Assembly: GCA_016280955.1 (NCBI GenBank)
Contig: JAEEHV010000006.1
Location: 1 to 64,000 of the forward strand
From: Candidatus Gastranaerophilales bacterium
GTDB lineage: Bacteria; Cyanobacteriota; Vampirovibrionia; Gastranaerophilales; Gastranaerophilaceae
Length of the DNA: 64,000 nucleotides
Direction of reading: 5' to 3'
The position numbers and the translations under genes were made by a program. The notes beneath the pieces were generated by a model that did no database searches, had not been told where the DNA came from, and saw only the letters and a list, made by a program, of their open reading frames with translations. Positions 20,587 to 26,670 of this stretch are shown here, piece by piece (position 1 is the stretch's first letter; each line of letters opens with the position of its first letter).

Positions 20587-20617
20587 TAAAAAAGGACTTT
20601 CTATGAAAGTCCTTTTA
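20587..20617. terminator. Hairpin left of the outer tRNA-Val remnant
   Basis: AAGGACTTT-CTATG-AAAGTCCTT with flanking A and T runs. On the minus strand it directly follows the tRNA remnant, as terminators follow the other two tRNA-Val copies. On the plus strand it may also end the 200-aa gene transcript. Confidence 0.7.
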
Positions 20618-20618
20618 A

Positions 20619-20638
20619 ATGGTGGGCGTTAGAAGACT
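20619..20638 (-). repeat. Short outer tRNA-Val 3'-end remnant
   Basis: The 20 bases ATGGTGGGCGTTAGAAGACT are identical to the 3' end (with CCA) of the intact tRNA-Val gene at 26595-26670. The match resumes as CTCGAACTTC at 20734-20743 after the palindrome, so this is an interrupted older copy. Confidence 0.8.
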
Positions 20639-20733
20639 GTCTTGACCTGTTCGCATTAAACGTGTCTGCGGATTTTGCTTTTGTGCTAAACGCACTTCAA
20701 AGCAAAAGTCCTCCGCACTCTGCTCACAGGTCG
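20639..20733. repeat. Palindromic ~95-bp insertion inside the tRNA remnant
   Basis: Nested complementary arms: GACCTGT (20644-20650)/ACAGGTC (20726-20732), TGCGGA (20667-20672)/TCCGCA (20712-20717), TTTTGCTTTTG (20673-20683)/CAAAGCAAAA (20698-20707), and an apical GTGC-TAAAC-GCAC. It splits the tRNA-derived sequence between GAAGACT and CTCGAACTTC, with CT on both sides. MITE/REP-like element or structured RNA. Confidence 0.65.
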
Positions 20734-20778
20734 CTCGAACTTCAAAAAGAATTTCTAGATATCAAAACACACAAAATA

Positions 20779-20811
20779 AAAATCCAGATAACCAATGTCA
20801 TCTGGATTTTT
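20779..20811 (-). terminator. Terminator next to the left element repeat
   Basis: AAATCCAGAT (20780-20789)/ATCTGGATTT (20800-20809) with flanking A and T runs. On the minus strand it follows the tRNA-Val 3' end, so it is probably the tRNA gene's original terminator, displaced by the integration. Confidence 0.75.
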
Positions 20812-20857
20812 ATGGTGGGCGTTAGAAGACTCGAACTTCTGACCCTCTCCTTGTAAG
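20811..20857 (-). repeat. Left element junction (47-bp tRNA-Val direct repeat)
   Basis: Identical to 26593-26639. It starts two bases outside the CCA complement and ends with TTGTAAG, inside the anticodon loop, where the sequence then departs from the tRNA gene. Crossover therefore took place somewhere within the tRNA 3' half. Confidence 0.9.
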
Positions 20858-20935
20858 AATGAAAGTAAAGTTATCCTAAACTTGCCAAAACCATCCCATT
20901 ATTGCATTTTAACGATTGATGTAAGCTCAGGCTCA

Positions 20936-20984
20936 TTACACAAAATTGCACAAAACTGCGGCATATTACACAAATATTACACAA
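20936..20984 (+). repeat. Four helically phased TTACACAA boxes at the left end
   Basis: Boxes start at 20936, 20946 (TTGCACAA), 20966 and 20977, that is 10, 20 and 11 bp apart, so all lie on one DNA face. Two more copies, 11 bp apart and in the same orientation, lie at the right end. They are good candidates for arm-type integrase or excisionase sites. Confidence 0.6.
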
Positions 20985-21020
20985 GATATTTTTTAAAGTT
21001 TAAACTTTTATATTAGTAAA

Positions 21021-21120
21021 TGCGTAGATTTAATAAATTATCCACGCACAAATTGCGTAAATACATCTTGATTTTGTGTAGATAATATTGTATAATGTAC
21101 GCATAAGGTGCGTAGATTTA
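21021..21120 (+). promoter_or_regulatory. Fic gene promoter with repeated operator-like boxes
   Basis: TTGATT (21068-21073), 17 bp, TATAAT (21091-21096). The 12-mer TGCGTAGATTTA occurs at 21021-21032 and again at 21109-21120 overlapping the start codon; a partial copy, TGTGTAGATAAT, lies inside the promoter. The Fic protein ends in a winged-helix-like domain, so autoregulation is a reasonable guess. Confidence 0.6.
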
Positions 21121-22217
21121 TGAAAAAATGCATTTGGCAAAGTTCTGAATATCCTAATTTCACTTACAATAAAGATATTATTATGCCTTTATTATCATCA
21201 GTAAGACTAAAGCAAGGTATGTTGTTAGGTAAAATGCAGTCAATTGGTTTTGAAAACAGTCAAAAAGCAAAATTAAATGTTTTAACCGAAGATGTAATAA
21301 AATCAAGTGAAATTGAGGGTTTAAAACTTAATATAGAACAAGTACGCTCCTCTATTGCTAAAAGATTGGGGTTAGATGCTGGTGGAGATATTTATGTTGA
21401 ACGCGATGTTCAAGGCATTGTCGATATGATGTTAGATGCAACAATACATTATGATAAACCTATTGATGAAGATAGATTGTTTGGATGGCAATCTGCAATG
21501 TTTCCTAGTGGTAGAAGCGGATTATATAAAATCAAAGTCGGTGCATACAGAGATGATGCAAATGGCAAAATGCAGGTTGTCTCCGGTGCTTTAGGTCATG
21601 AAAAGGTACATTATGAAGCTCCGAGTGCAGATATTGTACCACAAGAAATGAATAAATTAATTGATTATATAAATAATGAGACCGAAACAGACTTAGTCAT
21701 AAAAGCCGGAATTGTTCATTTATGGTTTGTTATAATACACCCATTTGAAGACGGAAATGGCAGAATTGCAAGAGCTTTAACTGATATGTTGCTTGCAAGA
21801 AGTGAAAATACTTCTGACAGGTTTTATTCTATGTCATCACAAATAAAAAAAGTCAGAAAATCATATTATGAAATTTTACAGATAACTCAAAAAGACTCTG
21901 TTGATATAACTTTGTGGCTAAAATGGTTTTTGGAAAATTTGATTATTGCTATTGATAATTCTGAAGAATTGTTAAACGATGTTTTAAAACGCGCAGAATT
22001 TTGGAAAAGGAATAAATCGCAAGTCTTTAATGAAAGACAAATTAAAATTCTTTCAAAACTTTTAGATAATTTTGAGGGTAATTTAACCACTAAAAAATGG
22101 GCTAAAATATGTAATTGTTCACATGATACAGCAAATAGAGATATTGCAGATTTAATAAACAAGAATATTCTTGTGAAACAAGGTGAAGCAAGAGCAACTC
22201 ATTTTATACTGAATTAA
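21120..22217 (+). CDS. Fic-family protein with C-terminal winged helix
   Basis: ATG 21120 is preferred over a GTG four codons upstream. The N-terminal domain (MKKCIWQSSEYPNFTYNKD) is of the DUF4172 type. SSEIEG at 62-67 is the class II inhibitory motif (S/T)xxxE(G/N) whose Glu blocks ATP. The catalytic loop HPFEDGNGRIAR (207-218) is intact, so AMP transfer to a target protein is expected once inhibition is relieved. The last ~60 residues (KWAKICNCSHDTANRDIADL) look like a winged HTH. It lies in the tRNA-Val island, convergent to the ATPase gene. Confidence 0.92.
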   Translation: MKKCIWQSSEYPNFTYNKDIIMPLLSSVRLKQGMLLGKMQSIGFENSQKAKLNVLTEDVIKSSEIEGLKLNIEQVRSSIAKRLGLDAGGDIYVERDVQGIVDMMLDATIHYDKPIDEDRLFGWQSAMFPSGRSGLYKIKVGAYRDDANGKMQVVSGALGHEKVHYEAPSADIVPQEMNKLIDYINNETETDLVIKAGIVHLWFVIIHPFEDGNGRIARALTDMLLARSENTSDRFYSMSSQIKKVRKSYYEILQITQKDSVDITLWLKWFLENLIIAIDNSEELLNDVLKRAEFWKRNKSQVFNERQIKILSKLLDNFEGNLTTKKWAKICNCSHDTANRDIADLINKNILVKQGEARATHFILN

Positions 22218-22263
22218 TTATAAGGGTTCTTAACATAAGTTACCTATAGTCATAAATATATCT

Positions 22264-24591
22264 TTAATCAAAGAAACTATTATCTATAACAAATGTTGGA
22301 TATAGTTGGTAATATGTATTATTTTCTGATAATTTCTGATAACGTTTAAGTATTGATAAATCATAGTTTGTATTATAAATATATTTTACATTTTCATTAT
22401 CATAAATACCTATGACACCATACCATAATAAAAAGTCTGTTAATTTTTCCCAATTTTCAGCTTTTATACCTTCTTTTTCAAATAATTGGTTAAGAGTTTC
22501 GGTGTCTAAAATATTATCTTGTCCAATGAACATAAACAAAGCATCACTGATTTCTGGCATTATATCCCTTATTTCACGACTAATTTCTTGAATTATATCA
22601 TATGAAAAATGTTTAACACCTTCTAAAATATCCTGTTCCTGTATTTTTTCGTGACCTCTGTTAATTGCAATTCCTATGCAATTTTTTATACAATCTATTA
22701 GAGCTCTTGGACGCATTAATGTTCTATCTACAATATATTGAAAACTGTCTTCACCTTTTACTAGATTTACACAAATACTGCCCCATATATCTTTAAAAGA
22801 ATACGTATCATCATTAAATACACTATATTCCAATCGTCTGCGTATAACTTCTTCCAAGGCAGAACTATCTACCCAATCAATTAAAACACGCGCCTCTTTT
22901 CCTCTGTCCGGAGTATAATCAATTAACAACTCGTATACATCATTACGTAAAAATATTACGGTTTTGCACTCAACGTCCTTGTTACTTAACTGTTGTTCAA
23001 TTTTTCTGCTTGCATCTAACAATGTTCTTACTACTATTAAATCTTCTTTTGTTAATCCATCAGTGTTCCATCCTTTGTCGATGTTGTCAAATAATATCCA
23101 TACGCTGTCTTTTCGCTTAAGGTATGTAACCAACAATTGTTTTAATTCATTAATATTGTGCCTATAAATAACCTCTGTTACTTCGGCGCTGGATAAACGA
23201 ATATTTTCTTTACTACCATATTTTTCATTTATCTGATTACTTATTATATTTATAATATAAGAAAGTCTTTCTGAAAAATCGCCTTCTGCAGAATAGCTAC
23301 CATTGTGATATAACTCATATAAACGATTGTATAATTCCGTTAAATCGTTATCCCAATAACATGCTTGCTTGTCTTTTTCTAATAATTTATAACAAATCTC
23401 TAATAATAAAACATATTCCCAAAATGCAACCAGTGTATGATTATAGGTTCCTTCTTGCATACATTTTGATAAAGTTTCTTTAAATTTAATAAGTTCATAG
23501 CTTTCAGGTTTTAAATCAATAACAATATTTTTCTTATTTGAACGTAAAGTATTTCGAACTTGTGCAAAAAGAGCTGTTTTGCCCGAACCTTTTCTTCCAC
23601 AAACAATTCTTGCTTCACCTCTCAAAACCCGATTATATTGATCAGTTTTGAAATAATAGTTTGATAAACTTCTAAATTCATTTTCTGCTGCAGATGCACC
23701 AAGGTCAATTTCTTCTAGAATTGTACGTTTTTCATTGTGTATATATATTTTCTTCTTTGTTTGTAACTGTTCTATGACAGAGTTTGCTAATTCACTTATT
23801 GCGTTATCCAATTTTTCGTTATTTGGACATTCTTTAACAATATCTCTAATATCTAAAGGTATATCACATTGTTCAACTTGAAGTATAGAAACTGATTTGC
23901 CCATTCCCAAAGCCAAACCAGATATAAAAGCAGCTCTAATATTATTATTAAAACTATCTTTATAACTTTCTGGTAACCAAGATACAATAACACCTAATGA
24001 TTTAGCAACATTTTCTATAGTATCAATTGGTGTCATTCTATATGTTTCTTTTGGGTCAAAACTTCTAAAGAATATTTTAGATTTCTTGATTCTTGAAACA
24101 ATACGAATACTTGTATTTGTTTTTATGCTTGTGTCCAGTAAGAAAATTGGTGCTTGTATATCTGTATTATTTTCATCGAATTTTAGGTTTGTCTTTGTGG
24201 AAATTGATTTTATGTATTTAATCACTTCATCGGTATTTTCATATTCTCCATAACCTAATGTGTCAAAAATACCGATTTCTTTTATTTGTTCTTTTGCTTC
24301 TGAATTCACTGCTGAATTACTTATTAATATAATATTTTTCTTTTTTGCAATCGCATAGCCTATTTCAAAAACAACATTATAATTTAGAGTTGATATGTCT
24401 CCTATAAAATCGTTTGCTTTATCAATATTCTCATAAACTTCGCGATTAATACTATTGCCTAATATATCTAAATGAGACCAAGTTTTTGTATTAATGTTTC
24501 TTTTATTTATAGGTTCTAAAATCTGACCAATTAACGCTGGCTTTGCAGCATATGCAATAAAATTGACAATATTCTCACTCCCTCTATCCAT
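22264..24591 (-). CDS. Large P-loop ATPase with deoxyribosyltransferase/TIR-like N-terminus (candidate defence protein)
   Basis: 775 aa. Residues 1-135 read like a nucleoside 2-deoxyribosyltransferase-like or TIR-like fold, with DFIGDISTLNYNVVFEIGYA and KKKNIILI. Residues 145-255 look like a second, more diverged copy (NNIRAAFISGLALGMGKSVS). The ATPase follows: Walker A GRKGSGKT at 332-339, Walker B VWILFDNID with Asp502, and sensor-like VIFLRND. It resembles the Sll1717-type/KAP/STAND-like ATPases. Effector-plus-ATPase architecture in a small tRNA island suggests nucleotide- or NAD-directed abortive infection; this is inference. A helical C-terminus ends the protein. Confidence 0.65.
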   Translation of the reverse strand: MDRGSENIVNFIAYAAKPALIGQILEPINKRNINTKTWSHLDILGNSINREVYENIDKANDFIGDISTLNYNVVFEIGYAIAKKKNIILISNSAVNSEAKEQIKEIGIFDTLGYGEYENTDEVIKYIKSISTKTNLKFDENNTDIQAPIFLLDTSIKTNTSIRIVSRIKKSKIFFRSFDPKETYRMTPIDTIENVAKSLGVIVSWLPESYKDSFNNNIRAAFISGLALGMGKSVSILQVEQCDIPLDIRDIVKECPNNEKLDNAISELANSVIEQLQTKKKIYIHNEKRTILEEIDLGASAAENEFRSLSNYYFKTDQYNRVLRGEARIVCGRKGSGKTALFAQVRNTLRSNKKNIVIDLKPESYELIKFKETLSKCMQEGTYNHTLVAFWEYVLLLEICYKLLEKDKQACYWDNDLTELYNRLYELYHNGSYSAEGDFSERLSYIINIISNQINEKYGSKENIRLSSAEVTEVIYRHNINELKQLLVTYLKRKDSVWILFDNIDKGWNTDGLTKEDLIVVRTLLDASRKIEQQLSNKDVECKTVIFLRNDVYELLIDYTPDRGKEARVLIDWVDSSALEEVIRRRLEYSVFNDDTYSFKDIWGSICVNLVKGEDSFQYIVDRTLMRPRALIDCIKNCIGIAINRGHEKIQEQDILEGVKHFSYDIIQEISREIRDIMPEISDALFMFIGQDNILDTETLNQLFEKEGIKAENWEKLTDFLLWYGVIGIYDNENVKYIYNTNYDLSILKRYQKLSENNTYYQLYPTFVIDNSFFD

Positions 24592-24751
24592 AGTACAAGT
24601 ATATCATATTTTACAAAAGATTTAAAGTACTCTTGTACATCATATATCATTTTACTTAATAATAAAAAACACCCCTTTTTCTTTACTAAAGTATCAAATG
24701 AAAATGGTCAATTAACATAGGTAAAATTTTCATGCGATACGGCTCGGCAAC

Positions 24752-24826
24752 TTTCTGACAATTGTCTACAATAAAAATATAGAAATTAAGTTTTCGATTG
24801 ATAACAGCGAATTTCAGACAATTTAT
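24752..24826 (+). repeat. Paired possible recombinase sites upstream of the serine recombinase
   Basis: TTTCTGACAATTGTC (24752-24766) and TTTCAGACAATTTAT (24812-24826) share TTTC(T/A)GACAATT, 60 bp apart, just before the recombinase gene. The first contains the palindrome GACAATTGTC. They could be resolvase/invertase binding sites or an operator. Confidence 0.4.
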
Positions 24827-24845
24827 AAGCTAAAGGAACAAGCAC

Positions 24846-25457
24846 ATGGCAACATACTCATATTTAAGGGTCAGTACAGTAGACCAAGATACAGAAAAGA
24901 ACAAATTAGAGATTTTAAAATTTGCTAATAGTAAAAAACTTGGCAATGTTGAGTTTATTGAAGAACAAATTAGCGGAAAAGCAAATTTTAAGAAAAGGTT
25001 ATTAGGTGTATTATTAGATAAAATGCAACATGGAGATATACTTATTGTGCCGGAACTTTCAAGAATAGCACGTTCTATAACGCAAATTTTTGAAGTAATT
25101 GAGATTGTTAAAACCAAAGGACTAATTTTATATTCATTAAAAGAAAATTTTTATAGTAACGATAAATCAATTACATCAACTGTTGCAACAACTATTTTTG
25201 CGCTTGTCGCACAAGTAGAAAGGGATTTGATAAGCCTTAGAACAAAAGAAGCACTTGCAAGTCAAAATGCGCAAGGCATAAGATTAGGCAGACCAAAGGG
25301 AAAAGGTAAGTCAAAATTAGATATACACAAATATGACATTTTTAATTTGCTTGAATTACATGTGCCAAAAACTATAATTGCTAAACAATACAATACTACT
25401 TTAACAAATTTATATAATTTTTTAAAACGCTGTAATGAAACTAATATCAACACCTAA
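24846..25457 (+). CDS. Serine recombinase (resolvase/invertase family)
   Basis: 203 aa. The N-terminal catalytic domain carries YLRVSTVDQD (nucleophile Ser10), VPELSRIARS and the helix QVERDLISLRTKEAL. The short C-terminal region (IRLGRPKGKGKSKLDIHKYD...YNTTLTNLYNFL) is the Hin/Tn3-type HTH DNA-binding domain. Likely a resolvase or invertase rather than a large integrase. It lies in the tRNA-Val island next to a tyrosine recombinase, so it is probably cargo or a multimer/inversion system. AGGA precedes the start. Confidence 0.93.
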   Translation: MATYSYLRVSTVDQDTEKNKLEILKFANSKKLGNVEFIEEQISGKANFKKRLLGVLLDKMQHGDILIVPELSRIARSITQIFEVIEIVKTKGLILYSLKENFYSNDKSITSTVATTIFALVAQVERDLISLRTKEALASQNAQGIRLGRPKGKGKSKLDIHKYDIFNLLELHVPKTIIAKQYNTTLTNLYNFLKRCNETNINT

Positions 25458-25521
25458 ATCAAAACTTTTAATTAAAATATAGGGATAAAGATAAAAGGGA
25501 AACTCAGCGAAAGGTAATTAA

Positions 25522-25734
25522 ATGGCAACATTAGAAGATGTTAAAAGACAAAAACAGCAAGAAAATGACAGATACCAAAGGGCTATAAACAGTTTAGACC
25601 AGCAAAAAGCAAGTGAAAAAAGCAGACACCAAAGACAAATTGAATATTTAAATGCACAAATTGAACGTATTAAACAACAAAATCAGCAGTTAGAAAGCGA
25701 TAATAATATCTTAAATATTGCAATTGGTAATTAA
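25522..25734 (+). CDS. Small coiled-coil protein, 70 aa
   Basis: The protein is almost entirely Gln/Glu/Lys/Arg-rich heptad sequence (RQIEYLNAQIERIKQQNQQL), predicted to be one long coiled coil. It may be a structural or regulatory partner of the adjacent recombinases. It sits between the serine and the tyrosine recombinase in the same direction, with GAAAGG upstream. Family unknown. Confidence 0.6.
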   Translation: MATLEDVKRQKQQENDRYQRAINSLDQQKASEKSRHQRQIEYLNAQIERIKQQNQQLESDNNILNIAIGN

Positions 25735-25837
25735 ACTTATTTTATATCAGCCAAAGAAAAATCTTCGCCTAATTCTTTATTCACTTCATTAATTAACTAA
25801 TTACTCAAAAACCAATCCAATAATAGATGTAAAAAAA

Positions 25838-26458
25838 TTGCGTGTGATAAATAAAATGGAAAGGCATTTATCAAAAGACGAAGAGCAAAGAATGTACAAA
25901 GTTTGTGAGGGCGATTATTCATTCATGCAACTTCCTATTACAGAAATAGAAAAACTCAAACGTAAATATGGTAGTGAACACGCCTATCTTAAACAGATAC
26001 TAATAATGGCATTAAATACAGGCATGAGAAAAGGTGAAATACTAAATTTAACGTGGGATTGCGTTGATTTCGAGAAAAATGAAATCTCTGCTCTTAATAC
26101 AAAAAACAGAAAGAAAAATGTTATTCCAATGAGTAATAGATTACGTGAAACACTTATAGAAATGCATGAGCAAAGAGAAAATAATAAATATGTTTTTACA
26201 AATCCATGGACAGGAAACAAATATAACGACATCAAAAGAACATTCAAAACTGTATGTAAATTAGCTGATGTTAAAAACATGCGTTTCCATGATTTGAGAC
26301 ATACCGCAGCAACAAGGATGGTGGACGCAGGTATTCAGTTGCCTGTAGTTAAACAAATTCTTAACCATGCAAACATACAGACAACCATGAGATATGCTCA
26401 CACTATGCGTGAACAGGAAGTCTCAGCAGTTGAAGCTCTTGCAAATTACAATAATTAA
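25838..26458 (+). CDS. Tyrosine recombinase catalytic domain, N-terminally truncated
   Basis: 206 aa; the catalytic domain of a phage-type integrase only. Seen: first Arg in NTGMRKGEI, HDLRHTAATRM (HxxR), LNHANI, and the nucleophile Tyr in TTMRYAHT. The start is a TTG or ATG 25856; the frame stays open 45-50 bp upstream (NPIIDVKKLRV), then meets a stop. The N-terminal SAM-like core-binding and arm-binding domains (~150 aa) are missing, so it is probably a 5'-truncated remnant. It sits directly left of the tRNA-Val attachment site, where the element's integrase is expected. Confidence 0.8.
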   Translation: MRVINKMERHLSKDEEQRMYKVCEGDYSFMQLPITEIEKLKRKYGSEHAYLKQILIMALNTGMRKGEILNLTWDCVDFEKNEISALNTKNRKKNVIPMSNRLRETLIEMHEQRENNKYVFTNPWTGNKYNDIKRTFKTVCKLADVKNMRFHDLRHTAATRMVDAGIQLPVVKQILNHANIQTTMRYAHTMREQEVSAVEALANYNN

Positions 26459-26504
26459 TTTGCCCCATTTAGCCCAACATATCCTAATTGCTTATACTGA
26501 CTTA

Positions 26505-26523
26505 TTACACAAGATTTACACAA
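26505..26523 (+). repeat. Two TTACACAA boxes at the right element end
   Basis: TTACACAA at 26505-26512 and 26516-26523, 11 bp apart, same orientation as the four boxes near the left end. The longer string TTACACAAGAT is shared exactly with 20977-20987. Confidence 0.6.
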
Positions 26524-26552
26524 AAGAAAAATTTTTGGAAATTTTGCAACAA

Positions 26553-26580
26553 AAAAGCAAGGTGTGAAACCCTTGCTATT
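26553..26580 (-). terminator. tRNA-Val terminator
   Basis: AGCAAGG (26556-26562)/CCTTGCT (26571-26577) hairpin. On the minus strand it is followed by TTTTTTG and lies 15-20 bp after the tRNA 3' end. Confidence 0.75.
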
Positions 26581-26592
26581 ATTGTCTTTTAA

Positions 26593-26639
26593 TATGGTGG
26601 GCGTTAGAAGACTCGAACTTCTGACCCTCTCCTTGTAAG
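26593..26639 (-). repeat. Right element junction (47-bp tRNA-Val direct repeat)
   Basis: Part of the intact tRNA gene; base-for-base identical with 20811-20857. Confidence 0.9.
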
Positions 26640-26670
26640 GGAGACGCTCTACCAACTGAGCTAAACGCCC
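26595..26670 (-). tRNA. tRNA-Val (UAC)
   Basis: 76 nt with encoded CCA. Acceptor GGGCGTT pairs with AACGCCC, discriminator A. The D-arm has TAGCTCAGTTGGTAGAGC, the anticodon loop is CTTACAA (anticodon UAC), and the T-arm is AGAAGTTCGAGTCTTCT. The 3' half is the integration target of the neighbouring element, which restored the full gene. Confidence 0.97.

Follow-up and report, generated by a model that had tools for sequence, protein, structure and literature searches.

A palindrome set in the T-loop of a displaced tRNA-Val half in Gastranaerophilales, probably part of a tRNA-anchored insertion cassette

The tRNA-Val locus

The DNA analysed here, called the window, is a 64,000-nucleotide stretch of contig JAEEHV010000006.1 from a Candidatus Gastranaerophilales bacterium, whose genome assembly comprises 2.78 Mb in 93 contigs. 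The sole intact tRNA-Val gene of the window lies on the minus strand at 26595-26670. A second, broken copy of its 3' end reads on the plus strand as TGGTGGGCGTTAGAAGACT (20620-20638), followed by a 95-bp insert (20639-20733) and then by CTCGAACTTC (20734-20743). Read in the sense of the tRNA, the T-loop is split as GAAGTTCGAG, the palindrome and AGTCTTCTAACGCCCACCA; the uninterrupted sequence is present at 20813 and in the tRNA-Val gene itself. The first-pass annotation had described a palindrome of about 95 bp, built of nested inverted arms, that interrupts a tRNA-Val remnant. This is confirmed: the break falls exactly in the T-loop, and all of the arms named earlier are present. The region is made up of the following features:

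20590..20618, minus strand: terminator-like hairpin 3' of the displaced half, read as the native tRNA-Val terminator; the arrangement is as in loci L157 (filled) and L168 (empty), described below
20620..20638, minus strand: displaced original tRNA-Val 3' half, AGTCTTCTAACGCCCACCA, with the same sequence as the gene's own 3' end
20639..20733, minus strand: palindrome, with its outer stem GACCTGT/ACAGGTC and internal loops conserved
Within 20639..20733, minus strand: inner stem of the palindrome, GGA-TTTTGC/GCAAAA-TCC, with a variable apical hairpin
Within 20639..20733, minus strand: right end of the palindrome, ...CAAGACA in tRNA sense
20635-20741: match of the covariance model R1 to the palindrome, 113 bits, the one match in the window
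20734..20743, minus strand: copy of the sense T-stem 5' strand and T-loop, GAAGTTCGAG, at the other palindrome edge
20744..20759, minus strand: loop and degenerate antisense T-arm, TCTAGAAATTC, which pairs with 20734-20743 as hairpin HP1, as judged from sequence, fold and a family-wide cognate signal
20778..20811, minus strand: cassette-borne, intrinsic-terminator-like hairpin, AAAAATCCAGAT...ATCTGGATTTTT
20812..20857, minus strand: 3' part of tRNA-Val supplied by the unit, 100% identical to tRNA positions 32-76
20858..26594, no strand assigned: later island, outside the cassette, with a Fic protein, a 775-aa AAA ATPase-like protein, a serine resolvase and a tyrosine recombinase
26595..26670, minus strand: intact tRNA-Val (tac) gene, called by ARAGORN, to which the cassette would have been attached before the island came

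The tRNA-Val part at 20812..20857 doubles as the outer end of the island, as it includes an unbroken 45-bp copy (20813-20857) that is identical to the tRNA gene. An integration at this tRNA before the present one had been proposed, and the order of features bears this out, with the island sitting between the tRNA and the cassette. As the island lies between the tRNA and a unit once attached to it, the cassette is the older of the two. The cassette thus entered the T-loop of tRNA-Val first, and the island integrated at tRNA-Val later, leaving its 45-bp identical ends. The tyrosine recombinase of the island has 206 aa and consists of the catalytic domain only. The Fic protein is SoFic-like, and the island is perhaps a defence island.

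Copies, tRNA linkage and structure of the palindrome

The first-pass annotation had pointed to the 95-bp unit as one that might be found elsewhere, and there are further copies in its own genome and in relatives. In the window's genome, a BLAST search of the DNA gave eight matches, one of which is the tRNA-Val gene itself; six other contigs carry copies, of which four are complete, one is a half copy and one is divergent. R1, a covariance model made from 49 copies, matched at 15 places in the same genome. By BLAST, copies were present in 27 of 57 sampled genomes, all within the genus. This apparent restriction to a single genus was overturned by R1: in Gastranaerophilales, an order of cyanobacterial relatives that live in the gut, 118 of the 146 genomes sampled and 30 of 40 genera have the family, with up to 26 matches per genome. 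In addition, 48 contigs came up when named genomes were scanned for an exact pattern, and many of these are titled Gastranaerophilales, Melainabacteria or Cyanobacteria. Many come from ruminant or horse gut, and others carry generic or evidently wrong labels. No Rfam family matched the window stretch at its own threshold, and a literature search did not find a description of such a repeat in Gastranaerophilales.

Most complete copies lie 58-101 bp 3' of a tRNA gene, on the same strand, and serve many tRNA types. The 46 complete copies in the genus that have 200 nt or more of upstream sequence include 40 with a tRNA within 300 bp upstream on the same strand, a proportion to be read with the makeup of R1 in mind, as the model includes the TTCGAG and AGTC flanks and so biases "complete" copies to T-loop sites. 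The window copy is one of the six exceptions only through the later island between it and its tRNA. The host tRNAs are those for Val, Leu, Met, Gly, Arg, Ile, Ala, Ser, Gln, Asp, Lys, Thr and Glu, to which other genera add Asn and His; two Pro tRNAs near shorter copies may be incidental. In the window's genome, seven of the 15 copies, the window copy included, are tied to an identified tRNA, and two further copies at contig ends have tRNA-like flanks. The earlier idea of a preferential landing site therefore holds: the T-loop is preferred, the junction is precise and the host tRNA's own 3' half lies beyond it.

About 30 shorter copies have no nearby tRNA gene, which fits a more general palindromic repeat. 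One copy away from any tRNA (L091:1082-1170) is situated between 31-bp direct repeats that contain a hairpin.

Folding of the single sequence backs the palindrome modestly and the comparative evidence is stronger. Of 200 dinucleotide shuffles, one matched or bettered the fold of the region as ssDNA (z -2.9) and three of 200 did so for RNA (z -2.25). The comparative test used 49 distinct copies, in which 18 stem pairs are 94.2% paired. Twelve of these pairs change on both sides, giving 93 double-change cells relative to a shuffled mean of 21.7. None of 500 shuffles reached the observed value, and sliding the partner strand abolishes the signal. In the palindrome stems G-U pairs are rare and a clear strand preference was not seen. 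This is compatible with selection on folded DNA, although it is not decisive.

Cassette anatomy and empty sites

The inserting unit exceeds the 95 bp of the palindrome, as it also carries an antisense T-arm, a tRNA 3' half and, in most cases, a terminator, for a length of about 180-200 bp. In tRNA sense, the intact tRNA is usually followed by an intrinsic-terminator-like hairpin and then by antisense sequence that copies, in degenerate form, the T-arm and the acceptor 3' strand of the tRNA. Next come a loop, often with a small hairpin of its own, a sense T-stem with TTCGA, the palindrome ending in CAAGACA and, finally, the displaced 3' half of the same tRNA. At most loci the repeated 3' half begins in the T-loop and extends as far as the tRNA's 3' end or somewhat past it. 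A hairpin with a T-run separates tRNA and cassette in 28 of the 38 complete cassettes tested; the other 10 have no terminator. Units also occur in tandem, 178-201 bp apart, at five loci (L048, L059, L067, L111 and L005), and tandem units of about 180 bp are free of genes.

The antisense arm is cognate to its host tRNA. Against the cognate T-arm its mean local score is 18.3 versus 12.0 when tRNAs are permuted (n = 45 cassettes), and the maximum of 2000 permutations, 14.1, is below the cognate mean. The 5-nt sense T-stem matches the cognate tRNA at 3.4 of 5 positions versus 2.1 for non-cognate tRNAs (45 cassettes). The cognate tRNA is strictly the best match of the antisense arm in 20 of the 45 cassettes; in some the match is poor, and for some cassettes the host tRNA scores no higher than other tRNAs. 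Where the tRNA has GA (positions 57-58), the aligned antisense arm has TC, which places CGAGAAC opposite GTTCGAG and would form a tandem G-A motif.

Each half of the split downstream T-arm is a possible partner for the antisense T-arm, giving HP1 on one side and a stem called P1 on the other. A three-way junction of the antisense and split sense T-arms is predicted for the family and for E. coli, with P1 missing in several predicted folds. RNA folding of the E. coli sequence, like that of locus L061, pairs the antisense arm with the 3' half in a stem, next to which stand a small hairpin and the palindromic arm. In the folds of other copies the small hairpin and palindromic arm are present and the outer stem is weaker or absent. 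In the window copy and several others both the antisense arm and the P1 stem are weak, and these elements may be left over as relics or have arisen by gene conversion.

The same T-loop slot can be occupied in other ways. At L042 a single slot holds two different palindromes back to back. Other palindrome families occupy the slot in Leu, Val and Arg tRNAs (L033:100-450, L234, L175 and L303); they keep the same antisense arm, and their CAAGA(C/G) ends are similar. Two arrays are broken by ORFs (L111, tRNA-sense 390-735, and L033:466-1134), one for a protein of about 95 aa that by eye is GIY-YIG-like, the other for a protein of 222 aa. At L003 and L045, the displaced tRNA-Leu 3' half encodes CCA and the intact upstream tRNA gene does not, which suggests that the incoming unit brought a CCA-less end.

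Relatives that lack the insert had been proposed as a check, and orthologous empty sites were found for tRNA-Val and tRNA-Arg. Here, dapB was unusable as an anchor of synteny because the tRNA-Val of relatives lies elsewhere, and the tRNA itself was used. At tRNA-Val genes that share the same upstream gene, genome G019 (L168) has the plain gene followed by a terminator and no cassette, while genome G017 (L157) has a full cassette; the upstream DNA of the two is 81% identical. In L157 the displaced half adjoins a terminator that closely resembles the native terminator of L168, an arrangement that matches window positions 20620..20638. At tRNA-Arg(tct), with orthologous upstream DNA, several genomes are empty and end in ...GGCGTATTTTTT, while other genomes have filled sites whose units include the cassette terminator. 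In one of the loci, L271, the native T-run follows the displaced half. These empty sites establish that the cassettes are insertions.

The palindromes also appear to have moved between sites. Among 39 tRNA-linked palindromes, the nearest relative lies in the same genome in two cases and at the same tRNA in two cases, in line with the 1.5 and 1.4 of shuffles. For example, the palindromes at tRNA-Asp of G017 and tRNA-Leu(caa) of G006 are 98% identical. The palindromes, most alike across tRNAs and genomes, thus spread, while the arms fit the local tRNA. Cassette-type terminators without a palindrome, at L160, L293 and L299, are probably remnants. The terminators of L157 and L160 are 98% identical over 47 nt although the upstream DNA is 74% identical, a sequence pattern that suggests exchange between species.

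Origin of the cassette and known systems

Taken together, the palindrome probably belongs to an insertion cassette of about 190 bp that is anchored at tRNAs, non-autonomous and laid out like the RtT repeats of E. coli. The cassette sits in the T-loop after TTC(G)A, and the covarying palindrome is extruded where the T-arm is split. The tRNA gene stays intact, as the cassette supplies a replacement 3' half and usually a terminator, and the original half is pushed downstream with its native terminator. The palindromic arm would pass from one tRNA gene or species to another, probably through site-specific strand exchange in the T-loop with an enzyme acting in trans. The T-stem and antisense arm may serve as an inverted-repeat recognition site, possibly as folded DNA, and the tRNA-specific arms may be copied from the host tRNA or selected to match it. 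For the most part the repeat would be a passenger, selfish or neutral, and its presence would be tolerated since the tRNA is restored. Site-specific insertion in trans and a largely passenger role are the most likely reading; no recombinase or transposase is linked to the repeat, and so the enzyme step is one that we infer.

In the first-pass annotation, the locus was read as a foldback element inserted into an att remnant. The inserted repeat stands. The bare element in a pre-existing remnant does not, as tRNA flanks and a cognate antisense T-arm recur with the palindrome. A simple foldback or MITE insertion of this kind, with a 2-bp CT duplication, would account for palindromes away from tRNAs, some of them inside reading frames, and for the L091 copy between direct repeats. 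However, it leaves the cognate antisense arm unexplained, and tRNA remnant and palindrome occur together at most of the tRNA loci examined. The proposed target duplication also fails. The CT of the plus strand is AG in tRNA sense, and 13 of 14 complete cassettes in TTCGAA tRNAs keep TTCGAG at the left edge, so this G belongs to the element and the CT match at the two edges of the window copy is coincidence. With the CT/AG match lost in tRNAs with A59, a MITE with a constant, short target-site duplication was rejected, and the simple insertion is improbable overall. An origin as phage or island scars is also unlikely, if somewhat less so. Here, the units would be attR sites left by T-loop tyrosine integrases and the palindrome would hold the integrase arm sites. 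Phage integrases are known to cross over in the T-loop with restoration of the tRNA 3' end (Ms6, PMC1762012), the same tRNAs host islands, as in the window, and the restored tRNA 3' half, displaced copy and T-loop crossover of such an att site are found. Most units are too short for an integrase gene and the two interrupted arrays hold other ORFs, but an enzyme might act in trans. However, the spacing of tRNA and palindrome is short and near constant (58-101 bp at most loci), most units are cargo-free and the tandem units carry no genes. Moreover, a single palindrome family serves many tRNA types, and an exact scan of a viral collection with the conserved right half gave 0 matches; a short pattern gave five.

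A functional RNA is a possibility to be kept in view, if not a probable one. It would be read through from the tRNA promoter and cut from the pre-tRNA, to act as a structured RNA or to tune tRNA maturation by way of its antisense T-arm. Covarying stems, conserved internal loops, stable predicted folds (z -2.7 to -4.8) and an antisense arm specific for the host tRNA all agree with this. Transcription of RtT occurs in E. coli, where a role as RNA has been assigned to it, with stringent-response effects ascribed to RtT RNAs (PMC4986893), and an RNA function may apply to the 10 cassettes that lack a terminator. Against this are the terminator-like hairpin between tRNA and unit in the other 28 complete cassettes, the scarcity of G-U pairs and lack of clear strand preference in the stems, and the patchy presence of units at orthologous tRNAs. 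Movement of a REP-type palindrome by a RAYT (Y1 HUH) transposase is very improbable. Y1 transposases occur in 22 of 38 genus genomes and E. coli rttR is listed as REP-containing (PMC12306157), but a copy lies near none of the 30 Y1_Tnp loci, the copy-rich genomes G005, G013 and G031 have no Y1_Tnp match and the unit is far longer than a REP. Least credible of all is an integron-like system in which tRNAs carry folded sites of the attC type. The units are reminiscent of one in their tandem arrangement, in a stem whose base is conserved and whose terminal hairpin varies, and in their fixed orientation to the tRNA. However, IntI (TIGR02249) exceeds its cut-off in none of 38 genomes, an attC-type R box (GTTRRRY) was not found by eye at the junction and the units are mostly gene-free.

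The 178-bp tyrT repeats of E. coli were described early. We know of no agreed origin for the RtT repeats behind E. coli tyrosine tRNA genes. The tyrT/tyrV region of K-12 gave four RtT matches, three of them 178 bp apart, and its sequence reads GGGGAAGGATGAGAAGCTTCGACCAAGGTTCGACTCGAGCG...GCTGAGTAATCCTTCCCCCACCACCA, that is, antisense T-arm, sense T-stem, palindromic arm and 3' half. Like the tRNA-anchored cassette favoured here, the 178-bp units stand behind a tRNA and each ends in the tRNA 3' part from the T-loop. Their antisense T-arm agrees with tRNA-Tyr at 18 of 21 nt and shares the GAGAA signature; they also have a sense T-stem with TTCGA, an extruded palindromic arm and the same predicted three-way fold. 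Tandem units of about 178 bp behind a tRNA, with a copy from T-loop to 3' end, are thus found in Gastranaerophilales as well. In contrast, the palindrome sequences are unlike, and the Gastranaerophilales cassettes use many tRNA types, mostly with a terminator before the palindrome. By sequence the cassettes fall outside the Rfam RtT family (RF00391), while the layout is the same: the best match was 24.1 bits (G021, L233) against a gathering score of 45 bits, 0 of 38 genus genomes exceeded the cut-off, and R1 gave no convincing match to the E. coli RtT units. Three of the four RF00391 loci that were read coincide with units of the cassette kind. One paper reports RNAs of the RtT family next to other tRNAs, both of Pasteurellaceae and of numerous tRNA operons in E. 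coli, and cites stringent-response effects (PMC4986893).

It may be, and we offer this tentatively, that there is a widespread class of tRNA-anchored mobile cassettes with exchangeable palindromic arms. These would insert in the T-loop by means of a recombinase whose target signal is the split T-arm together with its antisense copy, in at least Gastranaerophilales and gammaproteobacteria, with RtT as the known example. The logic would be integron-like without IntI, the tRNA being the anchor. What makes the idea of interest is the hundreds of matches listed, in 30 genera of a distant phylum, on many tRNA types and with the RtT layout. That quite different palindromes fit the same T-loop slot points to a general mechanism acting on tRNA T-arms. 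With empty sites and a covarying structure at hand, mobile DNA and functional RNA can be told apart by comparative genomics and transcript mapping.

Other known systems share single traits with the cassette. In mycobacteriophage Ms6, crossover is likewise in the T-loop and the incoming DNA restores the tRNA 3' end (PMC1762012); the cassette differs in its length of about 190 bp, in having no integrase gene, in the use of many tRNA types by one family and in its tandem units. REP/REPIN-RAYT elements are likewise non-autonomous palindromes scattered in intergenic DNA, whereas the cassette is longer, anchored to tRNAs and linked to no Y1 transposase. The Rickettsia palindromic elements (RPE) are 100-150 bp palindromes in many copies, some in frame in proteins (PMC10969869), a likeness of description, and the review makes no mention of tRNA-derived arms or T-loop specificity. 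In the present collection, palindrome-derived stretches at L007:1497-1575 and L287/L290 lie in frame within long ORFs of 462 and 603 codons.
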